Positions 18,567 through 31,303 of a stretch of 31,373 nt of DNA are shown here, in pieces; the first letter of the stretch is position 1, and each line of letters begins with the position of its first letter. Under the pieces are notes generated by a model, which was given only the letters and a program-made list of their open reading frames with translations, did not search any database and was not told the origin of the DNA. The DNA lies in IMG/VR virus record IMGVR_UViG_3300025626_000080, positions 1 through 31,373 of that record. One strand, 5' to 3'. A program made the translations under genes and the position numbers. This DNA comes from a virus.

Positions 18567-21500
18567 ATGGAAAACAAAGATTTAGAGTTACTTAAAAACG
18601 AAATACTAGGCGTAGAAGAACTTGTTGAAGAACAACCCGTGGAAAAGACAGAGGATCCGGAGACAACAACTGCCCCGACTGCGGATCCAGAAAGTGGGGC
18701 ATCCAGCTTGGAAACTACTTCATCGGAGTTAGCAGATCTTAAGAAAGAATTAGTTACTGATCCTCCAAAAAAATACAAGCACGTTCCTATAGAAAATCTT
18801 ATAGATAAAGATATAGAGACTTTACAAACTTCTTATCCTAATTTTAAAATAAACAAAACATTTATTGGTGGAGCTATAGAAGTAATTAATATACAGACAG
18901 GTGAAAAGCAAGAATTTTTTGGACCACAAAGCACAGGTGTTACTGGAAGAAACATAGAAGGCTTAAGCAAAGACAAAGATCAAGAATATATTGATTTTAA
19001 AAACTTTATAGAAGCTAATGATGATGTATCTGAAGAGTCTAAATACATACATCAAATGACAGGTTTAATTCCTGAAGACAATGAGTATAAAGGATTTGAA
19101 TACGAAGGCACTACAAAAAACCCTTATTCTTTAATAAAAAGAACAGAACAGAAACTTAACCTAGCTTTAGATGAATATGCTGAATCAATAAGTTTTGGTT
19201 TACCTAACTCAAAAGGAGAAAGAAAACAAACGTATGAGCTTTTGATGAATAAAAAAGCAGATTACAATAGCTTAAGTCAAGAAGCTAAAAACCAAATTAA
19301 TGCTTCTGTTATTAACATGGTTAAAAAAGATGAATTTTTAAATATAACAGACGACGATGTTAAATCTATATTAACTAACAATAAATTTATAAGTAATATA
19401 AATTATAATAGAGATCAAGCAGTTAGTGAGCAGATGGTTGATATTGTTGATATAACTTTTGATTTAAGTAAAGATGCTGATAAGCAAGAATTTATTGATT
19501 TTAAAAAGAGAAAAGAAAATGAATTTACAGCAAATCTTAATGCACAGCAGAAAGCTAGACTAAAGCAAATTGAAAACCTTAACAAACAAAGAGATAGTGA
19601 AGACTTAACACTAGAAGAAACAGTAGATTTAAAAAACGCACCTGAAAAATTAGAAACATTATTTAACAATGATGGTTCTTTTAATGGAGCAACAGAAGCA
19701 GAGCAACAGACATATACACTTCAACAGCAGATGGAGTATTTAATAGCTTCTTTAAGTTCAGACTTTGACAACAGAACAACAAAAGAAAAGTTTAAAGACA
19801 ACTACGACATAGAGGTTTTACAGTTAATGAAGAACGAGCAGATAGGTAACAAGAGGTTTATTGATATATCTCCTGCTTTATTGAACAATCTTAAAAGCAA
19901 AGCTTCTTTAAACGAGTTACCTATAGCTATAGTATCTGAACTTGGATCTTTTTTAGCTACTATAGGTGACGATGAAAAAACAAGAATAAGTTATTCAAAA
20001 CTTGCCAAGTATCAAATAAGCCCAGAGCTACTCAAAAAAGATCAAGCTTTATTAGGAGTTGAAGAAGAAGATTTTAGAGGTTATACTGCTTGGCTTGATG
20101 ATAAGAAACAACACGAGCAGGCTATGTTAGGCGCTTTTAATGTTATAAACTTAGAGCAAATGCCTGATAGAAACGAAGAGTTTAATCCTTTTGTTAACTT
20201 TTTTCAAGAAACTATTAAAGCTTTTCAAACTGGTACTTTTTATGGTGCTAGAGACACAGAGTATTCTTCTAATTTTAATAGAGCATTATTTGGTAGTTAC
20301 AGCCCTGTTGAGACGTTAGACGCTGTCGAAGCGTCTTTTAATAGTTATAATGAAAGAAATCCTGATTCAGAAATTAAGCTAAGCCCAAAACAAAAAGAAA
20401 ACTTTAAACAAGGTATAGCTGAATTAACATCCACTGGTTTAGGTGGTATGGTTCCTTTTTTAATGGAAATGTTTGTAGTTGGAGCAGCAACAGAGGGAGT
20501 AGGTGTATTTAGAAGCTTTGGTAAAGTTGGTCAAGTTATAGATGCTATGTTACTAGAAGAACTTAAGTTTGCGGCAGTGCCTAGTACACCACTAGAACCA
20601 GGCGCAGGTGCAACATTTACAGGCGCTGGTATGTTGGCTAGTAAAATACCAATTGGCCCTTTTAAAACTTACTTTACAGGACTAAGACCTTTTTATGAAA
20701 AAGTAATTAAAGCAGGTTGGGTTGGAGCTGCATCATCACAAGCTAACAAGTTTGTTAGAGTTTTTGCAGATGACTTACTAGGACACACTCCTTGGAGAAC
20801 TGCTTTTGAAAACAACTATGGTGACTTGCTATCAGGCGATGATGAAGCGTTTAACGAATTTACTAAAGAAACATTGGTAGATGCTTTTATATTTGGAATA
20901 TCAGGTGTATCACATTTAAGAAAAGGTGATTTTCAATCTGTAAGCAAAAAGAAAAAAGTACTAAGTAGCTTGATTGATAAAAACAGTAAGGAGCTTAATG
21001 CTATAAGAGAAGAATTTTCTTTAGATAATTCAGAATTTAAAAAGATGTCTGGCGAAGAGTTTATAGAAGCATTACAAAATGCAGATTTATCTAAAGCACA
21101 ACAAGAAAGATTTACTAAGCTTCAAGAGTCTTTTGGCTTACAAACAATGTTATCTCAGAATATACAGCATGATATTAAGTTTGAAGATTATAACAACATA
21201 GATCTTTTTGAAAAGAATTTAGCTAACCCAGTAACTAAAAGATTAACGGCTAACGCCGAAGCTGCCGGAGCAAAAGCCCCAAAGTTTAAATTTGAATTTA
21301 CAGATGCAAATAACCCTGTATTAGCTGGCGCCCCTGCCAAAGTAATAGCAAAAGGTGGAGAATATAGAGTTGTATTTTCTAGGGAAAGTTACAATGCTGG
21401 AAGAGCTGGTCATGAGTTGCAGCATTTAGTAGACTTAGAATACTATAGATTAAATCCAGAAGCTAAAGAAAGCATTAGAAGAAAAGCTGGACAAGAAGAA

Positions 21501-24500
21501 ATTTTACTTTCAAAAGTTGATAATATAAAAGTAACTGTAGGAGATAAAACTACTAATGAATCGCTTATAAAACTTTTACAAAAAATATATCCTGAGCTTA
21601 CAAAGGCTGAAATATTAGAAAAAGAATATAAAACTAACTTAATAGAATTATTCAGTGACAAATCAAATTTGTTAATAGAAAATCCAATAGAAGCTTCTAC
21701 ATGGCTTGGTGAATTAAAAAGAGACTTTTTAGATTTAAAAAGATCGATGTTTGGTTCAGATGCAAAGCTAGTAGAAATTAGAACTGTTGAAGATCTAATG
21801 ATTCAAATAAACAATTTAACTAGAGATCTTAATAGAGGTACAGAAATTAATGATAGTACTCTTGATATAATGGAAGCTCTCTCTAAAACTAAGTTAAGTG
21901 AAATAGGTCTTACTAAATTAAATAAAGACGCAGAGTCAATAAAAACAGAAATTGAGTTAGCTGAAAAGAAAGCGCCAAAAGATTTTGAAGGAGATATAGT
22001 TGTTCCAACGCAGTTAGAATCTAAATCAGTACTAGAAAACCTAGAAAAAGAAGTAAGAGAAAAAGGAGAGTTTAAAGGTAAAGACGAAAAAGGTAATGAT
22101 CAATATACTCCTGATCCGTCTACTGTAAGTAAAATACTTGCAGAAACTTATTATAAAGCAGAGGTCATGGCCAACAACCCAGAGATTTGGATTAGACATG
22201 GTTCTTTAAGAATGCCTAAAGACCAACAGGTTCGTGATGACGTTGCAGGTGAATTAATGGTAGAATTGGTTAAATATGCTAACAGGTATGACGGAAGAGG
22301 CAGTGTTGATGGTTACTTAAACTGGGCTTTAAATAAGCAATGGGTAAATGCTCTTAATCGTGCTGGGGTTTATGACAATGCAGGTAAGGTTGAGTTTGAT
22401 GAGAATAAAAATTATAACAAAGAGCTAGGAGGAGAAGATAGTTGGCGAGATGTAGAAACGCAAGCAACTGAAATTAGAACTCCAAATATAATAACTAATA
22501 GAACGCCTAAAACAGTTAGTAAAGCTATTGAAGGAGGTTATTATAATAAAGATCTATACAACAACGTAGCTAAAAGCATAAGCACTGGTTCAGATATTTC
22601 TACTAATTATAAAGATACTTTTCCAAGATCTGGCATAATAGAAATGATAGAGCCTAGTTTAGTTGGTAAAATAGTAGATCAAAAAACAGGTCAAGTAAAT
22701 ACTTCAGCAACAGAGATAGGTAAAAAGTTAGCTACTAAAGTTTTTGATAAATTAGGTATAAACAAAGAAGTAGAAAATGCCGATCAAATACTAACTGGTA
22801 TAATAGAAATATTACCATCTAGAAGTTCTGTTCCTTATAATGAAGTAATCACAGCTAGCGGTGAATCTATAGTAGCTAGCGATGCTCAAGCTGGATTATC
22901 TTCCGGTATACAAACCAAATTATTAGAGTCTCCTCTGTATGAGAGAAAAGGTAGAGAAAAAGATCCTCAAGGTAATCCTATATATGAAAAAATTAAACAA
23001 GAAGATTTAACTCCAGAAAAATTACAAGAAATAAGAGATTATTTTAACACGCCTAATACTAGAAACAACTCTACTAAACTTAGAAACTTAATTTATCAAA
23101 TAGATAAAGCTGTAACTAATAGCATAGAAGTAAGTGTTGCTAAAGAAAAAATACTAAAAGACGCTTTTGAAATAGGTGATATGATGGGTGCCACTAGTCT
23201 AGAGCTTAACGCTGCTGGAATTTCAGAATCAATTAGAGAAGAACTAGCTGATGCAGGTTATGACTTTACTGTTCAAGATCTTAATAAGAAAGTAAACAAC
23301 TTTGTCTTATCAAATAGTGAAAATACCGAAGATCTTGACTTTTTGATTAAGACAGCTGTTATAAAACAAATAAAAATTGAGAAAGACGGAGATGGTTTTA
23401 TAAAAGTAACAAAAGAAAAAATGCCTGATTTTGATGCGCCTTTATCTTTTTCTTCTAAAAAACTAACTAAAGAACAAGCAGAAGCAGCTAGAGACGAACA
23501 CGCTGAACAGTTTATTAAGTTCGTGGAGTCTCCATTTTTTGGTAATGTATTTAATGTTGGAAAATTTCCTGGAAGCAAACAAACACTACCGTTTTTATTA
23601 GCTAAATTTAACGATGCTAAAAGAACTGTTGGTAATGCTGGAAGCGAAAGAGGTAAAAAAGTTCTTAAAGCTTTAGAAAACACTAAAGAAATATCTGAAG
23701 ATATATTATTACAAGACTCTGAGTTTGCTAATGCTATAAAGCAACTTAATAAAGATATAAAAGAAAACAATATAGAAGCTGCTAATTCTATAGTAGGAGC
23801 TAATACTAAGACACAAGATATATTTAACATTGTTACTGGTTTAAAAAATGGACAGGTAGCAAAAGTTATACAGCTAGAAGGTAGAGATGGTAAAACCATA
23901 CTGTGGAATCCAGATGGTAAGTTTGAGTTTAAACAAACTGAAGGAGTTGAAATAGTAAAAGGTAGCACTAAGCTTGTTAAAGAAAACTTAATAAATAAAG
24001 TATACGATCCTAAAATAGCTAAGGCTTTAAAAAATTATGACTTTGTTATTAACAGTGCTTTACAGAAGTGGTATTTGTCAGTTCCTAAAAAAGAAAAAGC
24101 AGCAGCTGATAGGTTTTTATACAGGCATTTTCAAATGACTACTAATACTACATTTTCAGATAGAGCTTATGCTCCTCTCATAGGTGCCACTCTTAAAGAC
24201 GGCATTGATGAAGGTCATAAAAAAGGTGAGCATGTTATGGATGCTTCTATGAATACTGCTTTAAAATTTCAAGCTATAAAAAATGGTAAATATAATAAGG
24301 CTTTTCATGATTTAATTTCTTCTGAATATTTTCAACTACTTACTGACAAACAAGTTTCTGATGTGATGGACAAAGAAATAGGTCCAAACAATACAGCTCA
24401 GATATTTAAAATGATTAAAGCAGAGCCTGAAAATATATATAACTTTGCAGAAGGTGAATACTATGATCAGACAATAGCTAAAGAGTACATAAAAAGAGAT

Positions 24501-27500
24501 GGTAATATAACAGCAAGAGAGTACTTTAATAGCAATGATATAGTAGGTGCGATACTTAAAAATAAAGCTTATACTACTTATTTAAATCCAGATAGAGGTA
24601 TAGAGAATATATTAAAACAAAAAGGTGAAACCTTTGCTCAGCAAGATCGTAGTTCTGTTTCTAAAAATATGGCTAGAGCTAGAAAGAAAACTGCTGAAAT
24701 AGAGCAACACGCTTTAGATCAAGGCTATAACCTAGTTGTTGATGGCACTGGAGCTGGCTACAATGCAACTGCTGCGAGAGCTAAAAAATATACAGATTTT
24801 CGAGGTGAAAATGTCCCTGACGGCTATGAAGTTTCTATGGTTTTTATTAACACATCTTTAGAAACATCTCTTGCGAGAAATGCTAGAAGAGTAGAAAGAA
24901 GTTTAGAACCTTTTATAGTAGAAAGAACTTGGAAACAAACAGAAGCAAATAGAAGAAAATACAAAAAACTATTTGGTAAAAACTATTTTGAGTTAGATAA
25001 CAACAATTTAAAACAAGGTGAAACACCTCAAGACTTTATAGATAGAGTTAATGCTAAGTTTGCTATAGAAGGAAAGAAAGTAGTTGTAATGATGGCTGGT
25101 AGTCCAGGTTCTGGTAAATCTACAGTTGTTGAAGATTTAAGTTTAAATGCTGAAAGCTTAAATAGACTTAGTAATCAAAAGCTAATTAATAGAGGTAGAG
25201 ACCCAAAAGAAGTTGTTGAATGTTCTATTGGAGACTTTGATGATAATGTAGCTTTTACTGATTGTAAAGTTTTAGCTAAAATGGGAGAGATAATTATAGA
25301 GCTCGATGCTCAAGATTTTAACACCCGTAAAGAAGCTTTAGAAAAAGATGGTTACACTATGAGCTACGAACAGTTTGATCAAGTTATAGGAGCAGAATCA
25401 GGTCCTTCTTGGAGAAAGTGGACTGAAGATTATAAAAGAATAGGTAGTGAAGACATGTTTATTATGACTGCTAGAGCTGCGGGTTCTCAAGAAGCTATAT
25501 TTAATTACTTAAAACAAAAAGGTTACGAGATACCTATAGAAAATATTATAACAACTGAAGGTACAGCTTTTGTAGATGGTCCTTTGTCTGGTGAAAACAA
25601 AAAAGCAGCTGAGATACCTAATTTTTATATTGGTGAATACAATGGAAAACAATATAATAAATTAAACTTTAGCGATGATTATTTTCCTAACACCGACGCT
25701 GTTAAGTTTGTAACTAACCAACTAGATATAACTGGAGACGTCTATACTAGCTTAGCTTCTAAAAATATAAGTAAAGAGTTTAATAGCTATATAGATAATG
25801 TTTTTAAAATAGATCCAAACACATCCTACTCTCTTGCTTCTGCTAAAAACTTAGGCGCATCTAAAGATGGTGTGAGATTTCTTTCTTACGGCATGGAAGA
25901 TTTTAAAGGTTTGTTATATGCTACACTAGATAAAGGAGTAGTAGGTGAAAGACAGTTTAAGTTCTATGAAGAAACATTGTTAGATACATATGAGAGAGGT
26001 GTACAAGCTTTTGAAATAGATATGGCTAAAGTTAATAATAGTTTTAAAATAGCTAAGAAAACAGCACCTAAAAACTTAAATGAAAAAGTAGGAGAAACTA
26101 CTTTTACTAATCAAGATGCTGTAAGAGTTTACTTATGGAAACAATCTGGAGAAAAAATACCTGGTATAAGCGATGCAGAAATAAATAAGCTTGTTAATCA
26201 AGTAGAATCTGATCCTCAGTTACAATCTTTTGCTGGAAAAATACTAGAAGCTACAGGTGAAGGAACATATGGTAAACCAACTGAAACCTGGAACACAGGT
26301 AATATAGCTATGGATCTTATGGAGATAGGTAAAACAGTAAAAAGAAAAAAATATCTTGCAGAATTTTTAAATAATAGAGATCAAATATTTAATGAAGATA
26401 ATAAAAATAAATTAAGAGCAAATTTAGGCAACAAATACATGGATGCTTTAGAAAACATGTTTGCTCGTATGGAAGCTGGAACAAATAGATTAGATATAGG
26501 TACAAAAGTTGGTAACAGGATGTTAGATATTATAAATAATACTAACGCAGTTACAATGACTCTAAACACTAGATCTGCTTTATTACAAACTATATCTGCT
26601 GCTAACTACGTCAACTGGAGTTTTAATAATCCTTTAAAAGCTACTGCAGCATTTGCTAATATACCTCAGTTTGCTAAAGATTATATTACTCTTATGAACG
26701 ATCCATTTCTAACTGAAAGAAGAGGTGGTAATAAAATAAATATCAATGAAGCTGAAATTGCTGCTGCTGCTAAGAAAAATGGTTATCAAGGCATGTTATC
26801 TTACCTGCATGATAAAGGCTATGTTATGACTAAGATGGCTGATAGCTTTGCAATATCTTTTGGTGGTGCAAGTTTCTATAGAAATAGAATAAACGACTTG
26901 ATGAGCCGTGAAAAAATGAGTGAATCAGACGCGGCTGCTCAAGCTAGACTAGAGTGGGTTAAGCTTGCTAGAGAATCTCAACAATCTGGAGATCCTTCAA
27001 AAATAGGTGCTGATCAAGCTAGCACACCTGGTAGGATTATGTTAGCATTTGCTAATACACCTGCGCAATACTTAAGACTACAAGCTAGAGCAGCACAAGA
27101 TCTTAAAAATGGAAGAGGTGATACTAAGGCTAACGTGAGTAAAATATTATATTACGGTTTTGTTCAAAACCTAGCATTCAATGCTCTTCAACAAGCTTTA
27201 TTTATGGCAGATGAAGACAGCATAACAGAAAAACAAAAGAAAACAGCAATGGGTATGCTTGATAGTTATGCTAGAGGCTTTGGAATAGGAGGTAATGCAT
27301 TTGTAGTTGGTAAAAACATAATGTTAGATCTTGTTGAAAGAAGTGAAAGAAACAATCCTGAATATATAGATGCAGTTCAAAAGCTAACTCAACTATCTCC
27401 TGGTATAAATAGTAGATTTTCAAAGCTTAAATCTGCTGCTTATGTTTATGAAAACAAAGTAGAAGAAATGCCTGGACCAGTTTCTTTTAGCAACCCTTTA

Positions 27501-27788
27501 TTACAGGTTACAACTAACATAGTTGAAGGAGTTGCTGGAATATCACTAGAGAGGTTAAGAAAAAAAGCGCAAAATTTAGCAGATGCAACGGATGAAGAGA
27601 ATGACTGGCTAACTAGAGCTGCCTTATTAACCGGTTATCCTAAATGGCAACTAGTTGATATGAAAAAAGACTGGGAAAAACAGAATGCAAAAACAGGTTT
27701 AGAAGAAAGAAAGAAACAAAGAGAAAGTTTCTTCGGAGGAGGAACAAGTGATTCTGAAAACAAAGATAGAAGTAACTTTGGATTTTAA
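18567..27788 (+). CDS. Giant multidomain virion/ejection protein (3073 aa)
   Basis: A 3073-residue protein, the last of the virion cluster. Visible in order: acidic, Pro/Thr/Ser-rich disordered N-terminus (about 15-80); charged helical region (80-560); hydrophobic, membrane-prone segments (about 620-730, with GLGGMVPFLMEMFVVGAA); zincin motif HELQH at 949-953 with a later NLIELF acidic site; a sigma-region-2-like patch (about 1220-1270); charged helices; a zeta-toxin/polynucleotide-kinase-like half (about 2030-2170, DGTG at 2059, then ARNARRVERSLEPFIVERTW); a P-loop GSPGSGKST at 2178-2186; a HAD-like domain (DFDDNV from 2223, MTAR at 2300-2303, SDD at 2369-2371); and a C-terminal segment (about 2660-2880) with SQQSGDPSKIG and NTPAQYLRLQARA that I recognise from many giant phage proteins. 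The start is ATG at 18567. It is likely ejected with the DNA. The enzymatic roles are inferred from motifs, not known. Confidence 0.7.
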   Translation: MENKDLELLKNEILGVEELVEEQPVEKTEDPETTTAPTADPESGASSLETTSSELADLKKELVTDPPKKYKHVPIENLIDKDIETLQTSYPNFKINKTFIGGAIEVINIQTGEKQEFFGPQSTGVTGRNIEGLSKDKDQEYIDFKNFIEANDDVSEESKYIHQMTGLIPEDNEYKGFEYEGTTKNPYSLIKRTEQKLNLALDEYAESISFGLPNSKGERKQTYELLMNKKADYNSLSQEAKNQINASVINMVKKDEFLNITDDDVKSILTNNKFISNINYNRDQAVSEQMVDIVDITFDLSKDADKQEFIDFKKRKENEFTANLNAQQKARLKQIENLNKQRDSEDLTLEETVDLKNAPEKLETLFNNDGSFNGATEAEQQTYTLQQQMEYLIASLSSDFDNRTTKEKFKDNYDIEVLQLMKNEQIGNKRFIDISPALLNNLKSKASLNELPIAIVSELGSFLATIGDDEKTRISYSKLAKYQISPELLKKDQALLGVEEEDFRGYTAWLDDKKQHEQAMLGAFNVINLEQMPDRNEEFNPFVNFFQETIKAFQTGTFYGARDTEYSSNFNRALFGSYSPVETLDAVEASFNSYNERNPDSEIKLSPKQKENFKQGIAELTSTGLGGMVPFLMEMFVVGAATEGVGVFRSFGKVGQVIDAMLLEELKFAAVPSTPLEPGAGATFTGAGMLASKIPIGPFKTYFTGLRPFYEKVIKAGWVGAASSQANKFVRVFADDLLGHTPWRTAFENNYGDLLSGDDEAFNEFTKETLVDAFIFGISGVSHLRKGDFQSVSKKKKVLSSLIDKNSKELNAIREEFSLDNSEFKKMSGEEFIEALQNADLSKAQQERFTKLQESFGLQTMLSQNIQHDIKFEDYNNIDLFEKNLANPVTKRLTANAEAAGAKAPKFKFEFTDANNPVLAGAPAKVIAKGGEYRVVFSRESYNAGRAGHELQHLVDLEYYRLNPEAKESIRRKAGQEEILLSKVDNIKVTVGDKTTNESLIKLLQKIYPELTKAEILEKEYKTNLIELFSDKSNLLIENPIEASTWLGELKRDFLDLKRSMFGSDAKLVEIRTVEDLMIQINNLTRDLNRGTEINDSTLDIMEALSKTKLSEIGLTKLNKDAESIKTEIELAEKKAPKDFEGDIVVPTQLESKSVLENLEKEVREKGEFKGKDEKGNDQYTPDPSTVSKILAETYYKAEVMANNPEIWIRHGSLRMPKDQQVRDDVAGELMVELVKYANRYDGRGSVDGYLNWALNKQWVNALNRAGVYDNAGKVEFDENKNYNKELGGEDSWRDVETQATEIRTPNIITNRTPKTVSKAIEGGYYNKDLYNNVAKSISTGSDISTNYKDTFPRSGIIEMIEPSLVGKIVDQKTGQVNTSATEIGKKLATKVFDKLGINKEVENADQILTGIIEILPSRSSVPYNEVITASGESIVASDAQAGLSSGIQTKLLESPLYERKGREKDPQGNPIYEKIKQEDLTPEKLQEIRDYFNTPNTRNNSTKLRNLIYQIDKAVTNSIEVSVAKEKILKDAFEIGDMMGATSLELNAAGISESIREELADAGYDFTVQDLNKKVNNFVLSNSENTEDLDFLIKTAVIKQIKIEKDGDGFIKVTKEKMPDFDAPLSFSSKKLTKEQAEAARDEHAEQFIKFVESPFFGNVFNVGKFPGSKQTLPFLLAKFNDAKRTVGNAGSERGKKVLKALENTKEISEDILLQDSEFANAIKQLNKDIKENNIEAANSIVGANTKTQDIFNIVTGLKNGQVAKVIQLEGRDGKTILWNPDGKFEFKQTEGVEIVKGSTKLVKENLINKVYDPKIAKALKNYDFVINSALQKWYLSVPKKEKAAADRFLYRHFQMTTNTTFSDRAYAPLIGATLKDGIDEGHKKGEHVMDASMNTALKFQAIKNGKYNKAFHDLISSEYFQLLTDKQVSDVMDKEIGPNNTAQIFKMIKAEPENIYNFAEGEYYDQTIAKEYIKRDGNITAREYFNSNDIVGAILKNKAYTTYLNPDRGIENILKQKGETFAQQDRSSVSKNMARARKKTAEIEQHALDQGYNLVVDGTGAGYNATAARAKKYTDFRGENVPDGYEVSMVFINTSLETSLARNARRVERSLEPFIVERTWKQTEANRRKYKKLFGKNYFELDNNNLKQGETPQDFIDRVNAKFAIEGKKVVVMMAGSPGSGKSTVVEDLSLNAESLNRLSNQKLINRGRDPKEVVECSIGDFDDNVAFTDCKVLAKMGEIIIELDAQDFNTRKEALEKDGYTMSYEQFDQVIGAESGPSWRKWTEDYKRIGSEDMFIMTARAAGSQEAIFNYLKQKGYEIPIENIITTEGTAFVDGPLSGENKKAAEIPNFYIGEYNGKQYNKLNFSDDYFPNTDAVKFVTNQLDITGDVYTSLASKNISKEFNSYIDNVFKIDPNTSYSLASAKNLGASKDGVRFLSYGMEDFKGLLYATLDKGVVGERQFKFYEETLLDTYERGVQAFEIDMAKVNNSFKIAKKTAPKNLNEKVGETTFTNQDAVRVYLWKQSGEKIPGISDAEINKLVNQVESDPQLQSFAGKILEATGEGTYGKPTETWNTGNIAMDLMEIGKTVKRKKYLAEFLNNRDQIFNEDNKNKLRANLGNKYMDALENMFARMEAGTNRLDIGTKVGNRMLDIINNTNAVTMTLNTRSALLQTISAANYVNWSFNNPLKATAAFANIPQFAKDYITLMNDPFLTERRGGNKININEAEIAAAAKKNGYQGMLSYLHDKGYVMTKMADSFAISFGGASFYRNRINDLMSREKMSESDAAAQARLEWVKLARESQQSGDPSKIGADQASTPGRIMLAFANTPAQYLRLQARAAQDLKNGRGDTKANVSKILYYGFVQNLAFNALQQALFMADEDSITEKQKKTAMGMLDSYARGFGIGGNAFVVGKNIMLDLVERSERNNPEYIDAVQKLTQLSPGINSRFSKLKSAAYVYENKVEEMPGPVSFSNPLLQVTTNIVEGVAGISLERLRKKAQNLADATDEENDWLTRAALLTGYPKWQLVDMKKDWEKQNAKTGLEERKKQRESFFGGGTSDSENKDRSNFGF

Positions 27789-28391: not shown

Positions 28392-28599
28392 AGTTAATTA
28401 CTCCGTCTTTTTTAGCTGCCCAATGATTTGAGTAAACACTATCGTTACACCCACACACTGGCATCCAATATAATGGATGAGTATCTAGCTCACAGGACGT
28501 AGAGTTATCTACATCCTGCTTACAAGGTTTTTCTTTTTTATTACACGATTTCACAAGCACCACCAGCGCAAGCAAGCTCGCCAGATAAATCTGTTTCAT
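28333..28599 (-). CDS. Kazal-like lipoprotein
   Basis: An 88-residue protein from ATG 28599 (a TTG two codons upstream at 28605 is a weaker choice). The N-terminus is a lipoprotein signal peptide: MKQIYLASLLALVVLVKSC, with the lipid-accepting Cys at 19 in a relaxed, Bacteroidetes-like lipobox (VKSC) followed by Asn-Lys-Lys-Glu. The mature part has a Kazal-type inhibitor pattern of the Bacteroidetes type, C-x9-C-x12-PVCGCNDSVYSNHWAAKKDG then GYC. The conserved Cys after SN in that family is replaced by Trp here, so one disulfide is probably lost. Kazal domains inhibit serine proteases, but reactive-site activity is not assured. It would sit in the host envelope, perhaps excluding other phages or protecting against proteases. 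Its first 59 nt overprint the RNR tail. Confidence 0.65.
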   Translation of the reverse strand: MKQIYLASLLALVVLVKSCNKKEKPCKQDVDNSTSCELDTHPLYWMPVCGCNDSVYSNHWAAKKDGVINYVNIPDTFSAGYCSYSNYN

Positions 28600-30403
28600 C
28601 TTCAACTTCTGTTATTTTAGTTAGATCTATATCAGTCAATGACTTCATCATTTCTTTATACTGTGATGATTTTATATCTTCAAAAGGAGCTTGAGTATAA
28701 GTACCACCATCATAAGGTAGGACAGATAGCCCGTTATAATAGTCCCTATTGTCCCACATCCATTTACCAGCTTTATCCCACTCTTCTTTTTTCAAACTAA
28801 CAGTAGCTGAAACATTATGAGTATTACTACCTCGCTTATGGCCAGGTTGTACCCACTCAGTTGCTACTCTTTTTATACGTTCAAGTAAATCAAATGGTGA
28901 TTCAGTTCTAAGTATAGATCCTTTAGGTGCTTTTTGTGGTATACTAATAACAGCAGTGTCATGAGGTCTGAAATATTCGTCTTCAATTAATTCAGGGTGG
29001 TTTTCAATTAAGTATTTATACATACTCTCGTTTTTACCAACTCTAACTCTACGCACATAATAATCATTATGCCATGCATGAATACCAGATGAAGTTCCTA
29101 ACGCCAGAGATGTTGTCCCAGCAGGCTTCACGGTTGTGCATCTTGCAGCAGATTTAATCCCTATTTGTTTTGCTATCTTTTTGTTTTCCCACACTACTAT
29201 ATCTGCAGCGGCCTTCATATCCAACTGCAGCACAGCGGCAGAGCCTATTCCTGTCATTGATACACCTATAAGGGCGTCCTTCTCTGTCGTATCTTTCCAT
29301 ATGTCTCTTAAATAATGAAAGTCAGTATAACCAGCTTGTAGTGTACCTATAAATGAAGCAACTCTACATCTTTCGTTAAAATCATCTTGATCTACTAAAT
29401 CACTTGCATTTACTTCACATAGATTACAAAACTGATATGGTCTTAAAGCTATTTCACAGCAAGGATTTGTTCCCCAGTCTTTATCATTGTTAAAATAAAT
29501 ACCTGGCTCACCTGATCCTGATAACTCAACACGCTTCCAGAGATCCATAAAAAATTCTTTACTTATCTTATGTCTCATAAGTACAGCTGAATTATTAGCT
29601 CTACCTCTTTGTGGTGCTTCTTCCCACCAGTGTCCAGACTTACAACCTATCATTGCTTCGTCATCTGCTGAAAACAAACTAATTAAAGCTGCTCTACGTA
29701 TACCACCGGCTAACACAGCATCTGCAATATGACATACAATATCATGAGCTTGTATTGTAGAAAGCTTATTACCGTCTTCAACATTTGATAATATACCAGC
29801 TACTTTTACTAAGCACTCTTTTAAAGGTTGTGGACCTGGTGCTTTACCACCAGACGTTACTAATTGAGCTCCCTTTGGTCTAATATCAGAATAATCAAAC
29901 ATTAACTTAGATGATCTCTTAGGACCCATATAAGACTTAATTAAAACTTTAACTGCATCAGCCCAACCTTCAATACTATCTCCAATTAAATGCCTTCGTG
30001 TTCTTTTGCCATAAGGTTGATTAACTGCTGGCAATTTATTTACATGATGGTTTTGTACAGAATATCCTACACCAGTACCACCAAGCAATAAAAACATTAT
30101 TTCATTAAAAGACTCAATGCTATCAATAGGTAAATAAGCACAATTATAAACTCTATTAGGCGAGATCTCAATCGGCTTACCTCCGAACTGTAGCGATCGC
30201 ATAGATGGTAGAACTTTCTTTTCATATACAAACTTATAAGCAGCTTCAATGTCGTCAGTAAGATCAGGATATTTTTTGATATGCATGTTCTTGTTTCTAG
30301 TAACTAGCTCTTCCCATGTTTCTCTTCTGTTTAATTCTGGCACATATTTAGCATACTTCATATAAACAGTAATATCACTTAGTATCTTGTTGCTTAACTC
30401 CAT
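28541..30403 (-). CDS. Class II (adenosylcobalamin-dependent) ribonucleotide reductase, monomeric
   Basis: 620 residues, converting ribonucleotides to deoxyribonucleotides with a B12-generated thiyl radical, which frees the phage from oxygen and from host RNR supply. Key residues are visible: Cys88 in YNCAY and Cys326 in FCNLCE as the redox pair, and NPCCE at 313-317 with Asn313, thiyl Cys315 and Glu317. The spacing 315 to 326 is that of Lactobacillus RTPR (408 to 419). The C-terminal swinging pair is Cys612 and Cys617 in CAGGAC. It is shorter than the Lactobacillus enzyme (about 740 residues), so an allosteric insertion may be reduced. The start at ATG 30403 overlaps the upstream gene by 29 nt and the end overlaps the lipoprotein start. 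Class II single-chain RNRs are frequent in marine phages. Confidence 0.93.
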   Translation of the reverse strand: MELSNKILSDITVYMKYAKYVPELNRRETWEELVTRNKNMHIKKYPDLTDDIEAAYKFVYEKKVLPSMRSLQFGGKPIEISPNRVYNCAYLPIDSIESFNEIMFLLLGGTGVGYSVQNHHVNKLPAVNQPYGKRTRRHLIGDSIEGWADAVKVLIKSYMGPKRSSKLMFDYSDIRPKGAQLVTSGGKAPGPQPLKECLVKVAGILSNVEDGNKLSTIQAHDIVCHIADAVLAGGIRRAALISLFSADDEAMIGCKSGHWWEEAPQRGRANNSAVLMRHKISKEFFMDLWKRVELSGSGEPGIYFNNDKDWGTNPCCEIALRPYQFCNLCEVNASDLVDQDDFNERCRVASFIGTLQAGYTDFHYLRDIWKDTTEKDALIGVSMTGIGSAAVLQLDMKAAADIVVWENKKIAKQIGIKSAARCTTVKPAGTTSLALGTSSGIHAWHNDYYVRRVRVGKNESMYKYLIENHPELIEDEYFRPHDTAVISIPQKAPKGSILRTESPFDLLERIKRVATEWVQPGHKRGSNTHNVSATVSLKKEEWDKAGKWMWDNRDYYNGLSVLPYDGGTYTQAPFEDIKSSQYKEMMKSLTDIDLTKITEVEDETDLSGELACAGGACEIV

Positions 30404-30745: not shown

Positions 30746-30896
30746 ATTTTTTGCTATATTTAATTAGATCTTTATATTTTAAATAACCTTTTGATTCTAT
30801 ACTCCAATCAATAAACTGTTGAAGTTTACGTTTTGTATACATACGTCTTGCTAGGTCTTTTCTTTCCCAAGAATTAAGTTCACGGTCTCGTCGCAT
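30705..30896 (-). CDS. Small charged protein, 63 aa, unknown function
   Basis: 63 residues from ATG 30896, with an Arg/Lys-rich helix (RRDRELNSWERKDLARRMYT) followed by an aromatic- and Lys-rich part (SIESKGYLKYKDLIKYSKKY). No family recognised. It overlaps the end of the endonuclease gene by 46 nt and the start of the 44-residue gene by 41 nt. The tight nesting between supported genes and the gene-like composition argue for translation, but this is the weakest of the small ORFs in this cluster. Confidence 0.5.
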   Translation of the reverse strand: MRRDRELNSWERKDLARRMYTKRKLQQFIDWSIESKGYLKYKDLIKYSKKYGEADTITVSGDY

Positions 30897-31303
30897 TCTT
30901 TTTGATTTTGAGGTTTATATAACGTAACGTTCGGTAAGTTTTTACATACATGAGCTTTAAATAGCTTCCAGCGTATGGGAAAAGATTCATTAGCACGTCC
31001 TTTGCATTCAATGATAAAGCCATTTCCCACAAAATCTGGCGTATACTTAATATTAAGTATCTTCTTATTACCTCGATTACGGTATTCACCTTTTCCATTA
31101 CTTTGTCTTTCATAAGCTTCTTGATCGAAGTTAAAAGAAGGGACAAGCTCGTAAGTTTGTCCCTCATATTGTGCTTTAATCTTAGCTTTTTTCAAAGCTA
31201 TGTACATATATTTTTCTAAACCTGAAGCAAATTGTATGCCATCATGTTTAACTTTCTTAGATCTTACCGGACCTTTCTTTTTGCTATACCGGCGAGATCG
31301 CAT
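30851..31303 (-). CDS. Endonuclease I-like Holliday junction resolvase (T7 gp3 type)
   Basis: 150 residues, almost the length of T7 endonuclease I (149). The PD-(D/E)XK motif elements align in order: SGLE with Glu30, then YTPD with Asp90, then IIECKG with Glu99 and Lys101. T7 has Glu20, Asp55, Glu65, Lys67 with the same SGLE, YTPD and E-x-K forms. It should cut branched DNA (four-way junctions) before packaging. A basic N-terminus (MRSRRYSKKKGPVRSKK) and a longer loop between the first and second motifs (residues 60-85) set it apart from T7. The start ATG 31303 overlaps the upstream gene by 20 nt, and the stop TAG lies within the next gene. Confidence 0.85.
   Translation of the reverse strand: MRSRRYSKKKGPVRSKKVKHDGIQFASGLEKYMYIALKKAKIKAQYEGQTYELVPSFNFDQEAYERQSNGKGEYRNRGNKKILNIKYTPDFVGNGFIIECKGRANESFPIRWKLFKAHVCKNLPNVTLYKPQNQKECDETVNLILGKEKT

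Follow-up and report, generated by a model that had tools for sequence, protein, structure and literature searches.

Can a kinase whose P-loop lies behind the rest of the domain still be a single enzyme, or are its pieces the remains of two? The question is raised by a 31,373-base virus record, referred to below as the window. It carries the gene for a giant marine phage protein (18567..27788, + strand; 3073 aa) in which a kinase half is followed by a P-loop, and the P-loop by a HAD domain. The initial annotation, which had recorded this order, offered two explanations: a phosphatase fused to a kinase that has been circularly permuted, or a degenerate kinase with the stump of another behind it.

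Motif order in the giant protein

The kinase part running from strand 2 to the C-terminal helix, as delimited by profile and structural matches, is placed first (residues 2004-2170; 24576..25076, + strand, as are all features of this protein). It contains an NxD motif whose residues N2007 and D2009 (24585..24593) are both invariant in 42 aligned sequences, and a DGTG motif (residues 2059-2062; 24741..24752), equally invariant in the 42, within the stretch GYNLVVDGTGAGYNA (recomputed as residues 2053-2067). The lid, ARNARRVERSLE (residues 2103-2114; 24873..24908), aligns with that of Clostridium thermocellum Pnkp (CthPnkp) and has the RN-R-R pattern of Pnkp, its three arginines being invariant throughout the same set; KYKKLFGKNYFELDNN was recomputed as residues 2131-2146. 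Strand 1, the P-loop and helix 1 have moved C-terminally, to residues 2171-2199 (25077..25163; profile matches given below), where a motif search places the Walker A, GSPGSGKST, at residues 2178-2186 (25098-25124). Across all 3,073 residues GxxxxGK[ST] occurs once, as GSPGSGKS at 2178. A hidden upstream P-loop, as part of a complete and ordinary kinase, was looked for both by motif and by a full-sensitivity profile search of the giant protein, and none was found ahead of residue 2053. Recomputed positions thus bear out the motif placements of the initial annotation, including its remark that no GxxxxGK precedes the kinase half. By the features expected of a P-loop kinase of the Pnkp/zeta type, the Walker A, the DGT, the strand-2 Asp, the lid arginines and a match to the family profile are present; the P-loop, however, should be N-terminal to the DGT and is found 119 residues after the DGTG.

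An uninterrupted HAD phosphatase-like domain follows (residues 2216-2388; 25212..25730), with about 36 residues between the P-loop and HAD motif I. The recomputed motifs are DFDDNV at 2223-2228, MTAR at 2300-2303 and FSDD at 2368-2371, and 17 sequences agree without exception at D2223, D2225, T2301, R2303, D2370 and D2371. The threonine of DxDxT, said at the outset to be an Asn, is indeed Asn 2227, a replacement confined to the permuted pair described below; relatives have Thr. A HAD profile found no match among PDB sequences; by structure, the domain matches the T4 Pnkp 3'-phosphatase (5uj0) best. The remainder of the protein (residues 2401-3073; 25767..27785) is a conserved region matching other giants with E-values down to 1e-176. 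The region after 2400 was considered as a possible kinase remainder beyond the HAD and rejected, being a conserved domain that is present in kinase-less giants too.

The giant gene closes a series of genes of head, portal and tail type, with portal and capsid matches (phrogs) upstream of it. Cultured phages with related portals have Flavobacterium, Cellulophaga, Tenacibaculum and Maribacter as hosts, and a Bacteroidota host is therefore likely. The giant proteins at the equivalent genomic place in two of these portal relatives, elemo 6-9C and the isolate ctfjg026, have no BLAST match to that of the window and none of its motifs, and no homologous C-terminus was found among cultured phages. Elsewhere in the giant, residues 949-953 (21411-21425) read HELQH, an HExxH motif with the counterparts HEIDH and HEIGH in two related giants (L001 and L010), which makes a metallopeptidase domain possible in all three. 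A match to Sigma-70 region 2 at residues about 1214-1266 (22200-22370; E 7e-5) scores 23.0 bits, slightly under the Pfam cut-off of 24. On the minus strand, adjoining the giant gene, 28541-30403 encodes a 620-aa protein with matches to B12-dependent ribonucleotide reductase domains. A DUF1064 protein with a weak match to phage endonuclease I is encoded at 30851-31303. A PADLOC run gave nothing clear.

Swapped tiling, predicted fold and alternative readings

The family profile was derived from 42 non-redundant phage kinases, all normally ordered. The window protein matches it in two pieces: profile positions 35-190 at residues 2007-2164 (E 2e-40), then positions 5-31 at residues 2172-2198 (E 1.8e-7). 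Together these cover the profile without overlap, with nothing missing from the domain core and nothing duplicated. Pfam AAA_33 gives the same picture, residues 2024-2128 corresponding to its positions 40-139 and the P-loop segment to positions 1-36, as does Zeta_toxin, also in two swapped pieces; the scores are 38.5 bits for AAA_33 (cut-off 27) and 37.7 for Zeta_toxin (cut-off 22.3). In 127 giant ORFs, N-terminal-only matches of at least 8 bits were limited to the permuted pair, the L001 repeat loci and one contig-truncated kinase. Because there is no background of such matches, the detached P-loop piece is beyond chance.

The other member of the pair, L001, lies on contig IMGVR_UViG_3300000115_000098 and has equivalent junctions. 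It matches the profile in the same two pieces, likewise in swapped order (E 3.5e-39 and 6.6e-8). Its kinase part is 40-47% identical to that of the window, and the catalytic residues, Walker A included, are all intact in both proteins.

AlphaFold modelled residues 1975-2425 with a pLDDT of 76.6 and a pTM of 0.57, and the kinase unit alone (1995-2213) as a single compact domain with a pLDDT of 87.9 and a pTM of 0.83. In the latter the P-loop strand is called as a strand at pLDDT 91-95 with no HAD strand available for pairing; structure prediction, proposed at the outset as a check on permutation, is in its favour insofar as the unit is folded as one domain. In the model alignments, unpermuted relatives cover the kinase half only (with the HAD in the first model), and the P-loop unit is covered by the two permuted proteins alone. 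Model residues 26-193 match residues 29-170 of the CthPnkp kinase (4gp7), up to its end, with Z 10.7 and rmsd 3.0, over everything except the P-loop unit; sequential structure aligners are by nature unable to superpose a permuted core in full. The isolated unit scores Z 10.6 against 4gp7 and 8.8 against zeta. For the HAD (model residues 241-423), the best match is the T4 Pnkp 3'-phosphatase (5uj0; Z 11.8, rmsd 2.8, 132 residues). Whole-chain matches to T4 Pnkp had rmsd values of 15-18, an effect of domain placement, and were set aside in favour of per-domain comparison. Foldseek matches in the PDB had weak E-values. Tyrosine-phosphatase (PTP) folds align to the permuted unit across the P-loop (Z 5.5-6.9; also E 0.016), which lends mild support to a P-loop placed in the sheet of the kinase half, yet may reflect a common arrangement only.

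A circular permutant is marked by tiling in rotated order combined with a one-domain fold, and both are seen here, the former in the profile matches and the latter in the predicted model. With the order kept in L001, these results clearly favour the first of the two early explanations. We consider it highly probable (about 0.86) that residues 2004-2199 form a complete, circularly permuted kinase of the Pnkp/zeta group, followed by a HAD phosphatase-like domain; the permutation looks like a natural and rare one. Under the opposing explanation, a dead kinase devoid of its P-loop stands ahead of another kinase of which a stump alone is left, and there is no working kinase at all. Such a stage may have existed, since a permutation is likely to arise by duplication with later losses, and the permuted kinase parts do sit on long branches. 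Nevertheless, the profile pieces tile without overlap or leftover sequence, the unit is predicted as a single compact domain, and two proteins that are only 40-47% identical in this part retain both the arrangement and every motif, which argues against decay. Nor would decay preserve GSGKS, NxD and the lid jointly. Survival as two remnants is therefore improbable.

It is hardly credible that the P-loop unit is a separate nucleotide-binding element, or belongs to the HAD that it adjoins in sequence, instead of to the kinase half. The roughly 36 residues ahead of HAD motif I are too few for a second kinase, so that the P-loop does not sit in a complete domain of its own; the HAD domains of relatives lack such an element, the strand is confidently predicted with the HAD absent, and, by profile, the unit best matches the N-terminal end of this very kinase family. 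Finally, although both contigs are metagenome-derived assemblies, an assembly error or chimera can be practically dismissed as the source of the segment order: the reading frame of the giant gene is unbroken, and the order recurs with equivalent junctions on a second, independent contig that is about 45% identical there.

In the permuted kinase, then, strand 1, the P-loop and helix 1 would stand behind the remainder of the domain rather than ahead of it. The old C-terminal helix would be joined to the old strand 1 by about 4-7 residues (about 7 in the window, 4 in L001), and the new ends would fall between helix 1 and strand 2. With the HAD directly downstream, the whole would follow the T4 Pnkp order of kinase then phosphatase, the kinase being permuted. 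Such an arrangement would probably have originated by duplication of a kinase, after which the first P-loop unit and the second remainder were lost. Because every kinase motif is preserved, as are the aspartates of the HAD, the kinase-phosphatase is probably active.

Distribution, phylogeny and the interchangeable module

The permuted examples number two and come from related phages, which, like the Asn in HAD motif I of both, counts against the reading as a permuted kinase with a HAD phosphatase. Unpermuted kinase loci of viral and phage records have the P-loop 74-95 residues ahead of the DGTG, except for L121, with a longer insert and a distance of 142, and one start-truncated ORF, in which the P-loop is unseen. 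Among the kinase loci examined, only the window protein and L001 have it after the DGTG, by 119 and 111 residues respectively. What looked like a second P-loop in L148 proved to be a regex match in low-complexity sequence and was discarded. No third permuted kinase appeared among the matches listed in wider scans, the largest of which kept a sample of 80 of 548 relatives. Among the matches listed, a DNA pattern combining the P-loop with DFDD retrieved helicases and other unrelated ATPase-like ORFs; the sole kinase match in that set was the L001 contig, which had been included with it. A scan of genome contigs gave no match to the full module and, for the kinase half, two contigs, both of one MAG.

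In the tree, the window and L001 kinases group together (97/82) within the giant-protein kinases (100/99), which are set apart from nearly all stand-alone kinases. The grouping of the permuted kinases as a single clade is only moderately firm, given their long branches. Comparison of the two giant genes (18567-27788 in the window, L001:3617-13165) gave 76% identity in the first 100 residues, 73-94% past residue 2300 and mostly 20-50% between those ends, and a neighbouring 222-aa protein is nearly identical; by these identities, divergence within this one gene is strongly mosaic.

The conserved C-terminal region, about 650 residues long, is common to giants with a nested kinase, a HAD alone or an ART-like insert. 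Ahead of it may stand a HAD alone (e.g. L043), a HAD split after motif I by a complete unpermuted kinase (L010, L098 and numerous others), a HAD-less kinase (L040, L097), or a HAD carrying an insert of ~135 residues that weakly matches ART-PolyVal (E 0.0056, below cut-off; L050, L070, L085). The window protein and L001 have a whole HAD with the permuted kinase directly ahead of it. The site after motif I is an insertion hot spot (L010:5081-10669, L050, L070, L085, L087, L090, L093), occupied in marine phage giants by a complete kinase, a 135-residue piece or a 50-residue piece. Two nested-kinase giant genes (L036 and L060) were found on opposite strands of one 50-kb contig, IMGVR_UViG_3300025131_000066, which may be a chimera or two phages.

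In relatives the nested kinase begins and ends at one HAD hairpin turn; the kinase termini are therefore near each other. Neighbouring termini are a precondition for circular permutation, and insertion at the HAD hairpin suggests why it was possible in this family.

Possible function and relation to known systems

The initial annotation had envisaged a virion-borne end-repair or toxin-like enzyme. Among solved structures, the unpermuted family profile matches the CthPnkp kinase best (1.5e-7), ahead of zeta (1.9e-6) and T4 PNK (5.7e-6). This ranking and the match of the HAD to T4 Pnkp favour healing of nucleic-acid ends. We tentatively give slightly less than an even chance that the permuted kinase and the HAD act in this way, through 5' phosphorylation and 3' phosphate removal. 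The giant protein would be ejected into the host along with the phage DNA, virion delivery being suggested by gene order and protein type. The toxin-like half of the early proposal stands as a rival, if a rather unlikely one: the permuted kinase would act on a sugar nucleotide and block wall synthesis, as does zeta toxin, which is defined by phosphorylation of UDP-GlcNAc and an epsilon antitoxin partner. The Zeta_toxin score well above its cut-off and the presence of 1gvn among the PDB sequence matches are in line with it, and so are the zeta-like kinases of phage polyvalent proteins, which are proposed (PMC5512222) to act on wall precursors and weaken the wall at entry. Nevertheless, CthPnkp is ahead of zeta both in profile E-value and in structural Z (10.6 vs 8.8), by modest margins, and the adjoining HAD is nearest to the T4 Pnkp phosphatase.

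Natural circular permutations among P-loop enzymes are best known from one GTPase group. In the open-licence literature, as represented mostly by titles and abstracts, no case of a circularly permuted kinase was found. We would venture, with slightly more reserve than for end healing itself, that this is the first natural permuted enzyme of the polynucleotide-kinase type: a working, phosphatase-joined and phage-delivered end healer in a giant whose enzymatic module has been swapped among nested, permuted, single-domain and ART-like forms. The permuted kinase and its normally ordered relatives of the same family make up a rare before/after pair, and with it a test for how permutations arise and remain functional. 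The locus is also a warning, as annotation by motif order would read the kinase as two broken pieces.

T4 Pnkp resembles the window protein in having kinase then HAD phosphatase in one chain, and both domains are structurally similar, being matched by model residues 26-193 and 241-423 respectively. Its P-loop is N-terminal, however, whereas that of the window lies between kinase and HAD, in a module within a 3073-aa protein whose motif I Thr is replaced by Asn. The CthPnkp kinase (4gp7) is the best PDB match both by family profile and by model, and the RN-R-R lid is common to the two, but it is unpermuted and its partner phosphatase is a metallophosphoesterase, not a HAD. Zeta toxin and PezT, represented by the Pfam Zeta_toxin match above its cut-off, are of the same fold group and likewise unpermuted. 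The nearest annotated homologues of the kinase half, from Pelagibacter phage HTVC008M (AGE60463.1) and from phage Melnitz (QZI95068.1), are stand-alone kinases of about 220 aa, with the P-loop first and no HAD. The nested-kinase giants (L010, L098) have the same kinase and HAD families as the window and, where the contig reaches, the same C-terminal region; unlike the window, they carry an unpermuted kinase between HAD motif I and the remainder. Polyvalent proteins are also large, multi-enzyme proteins, thought to be coinjected with DNA, and some include zeta-like kinases (Iyer et al. 2017, PMC5512222); neither HAD-kinase nesting nor a permuted kinase was found in the main text of that paper. 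The YjeQ/YlqF/Lsg1 proteins (PMC1262696) share with the window a natural circular permutation of a P-loop domain, but they are GTPases, not kinases, and are permuted at another point, with G4 before G1-G3.
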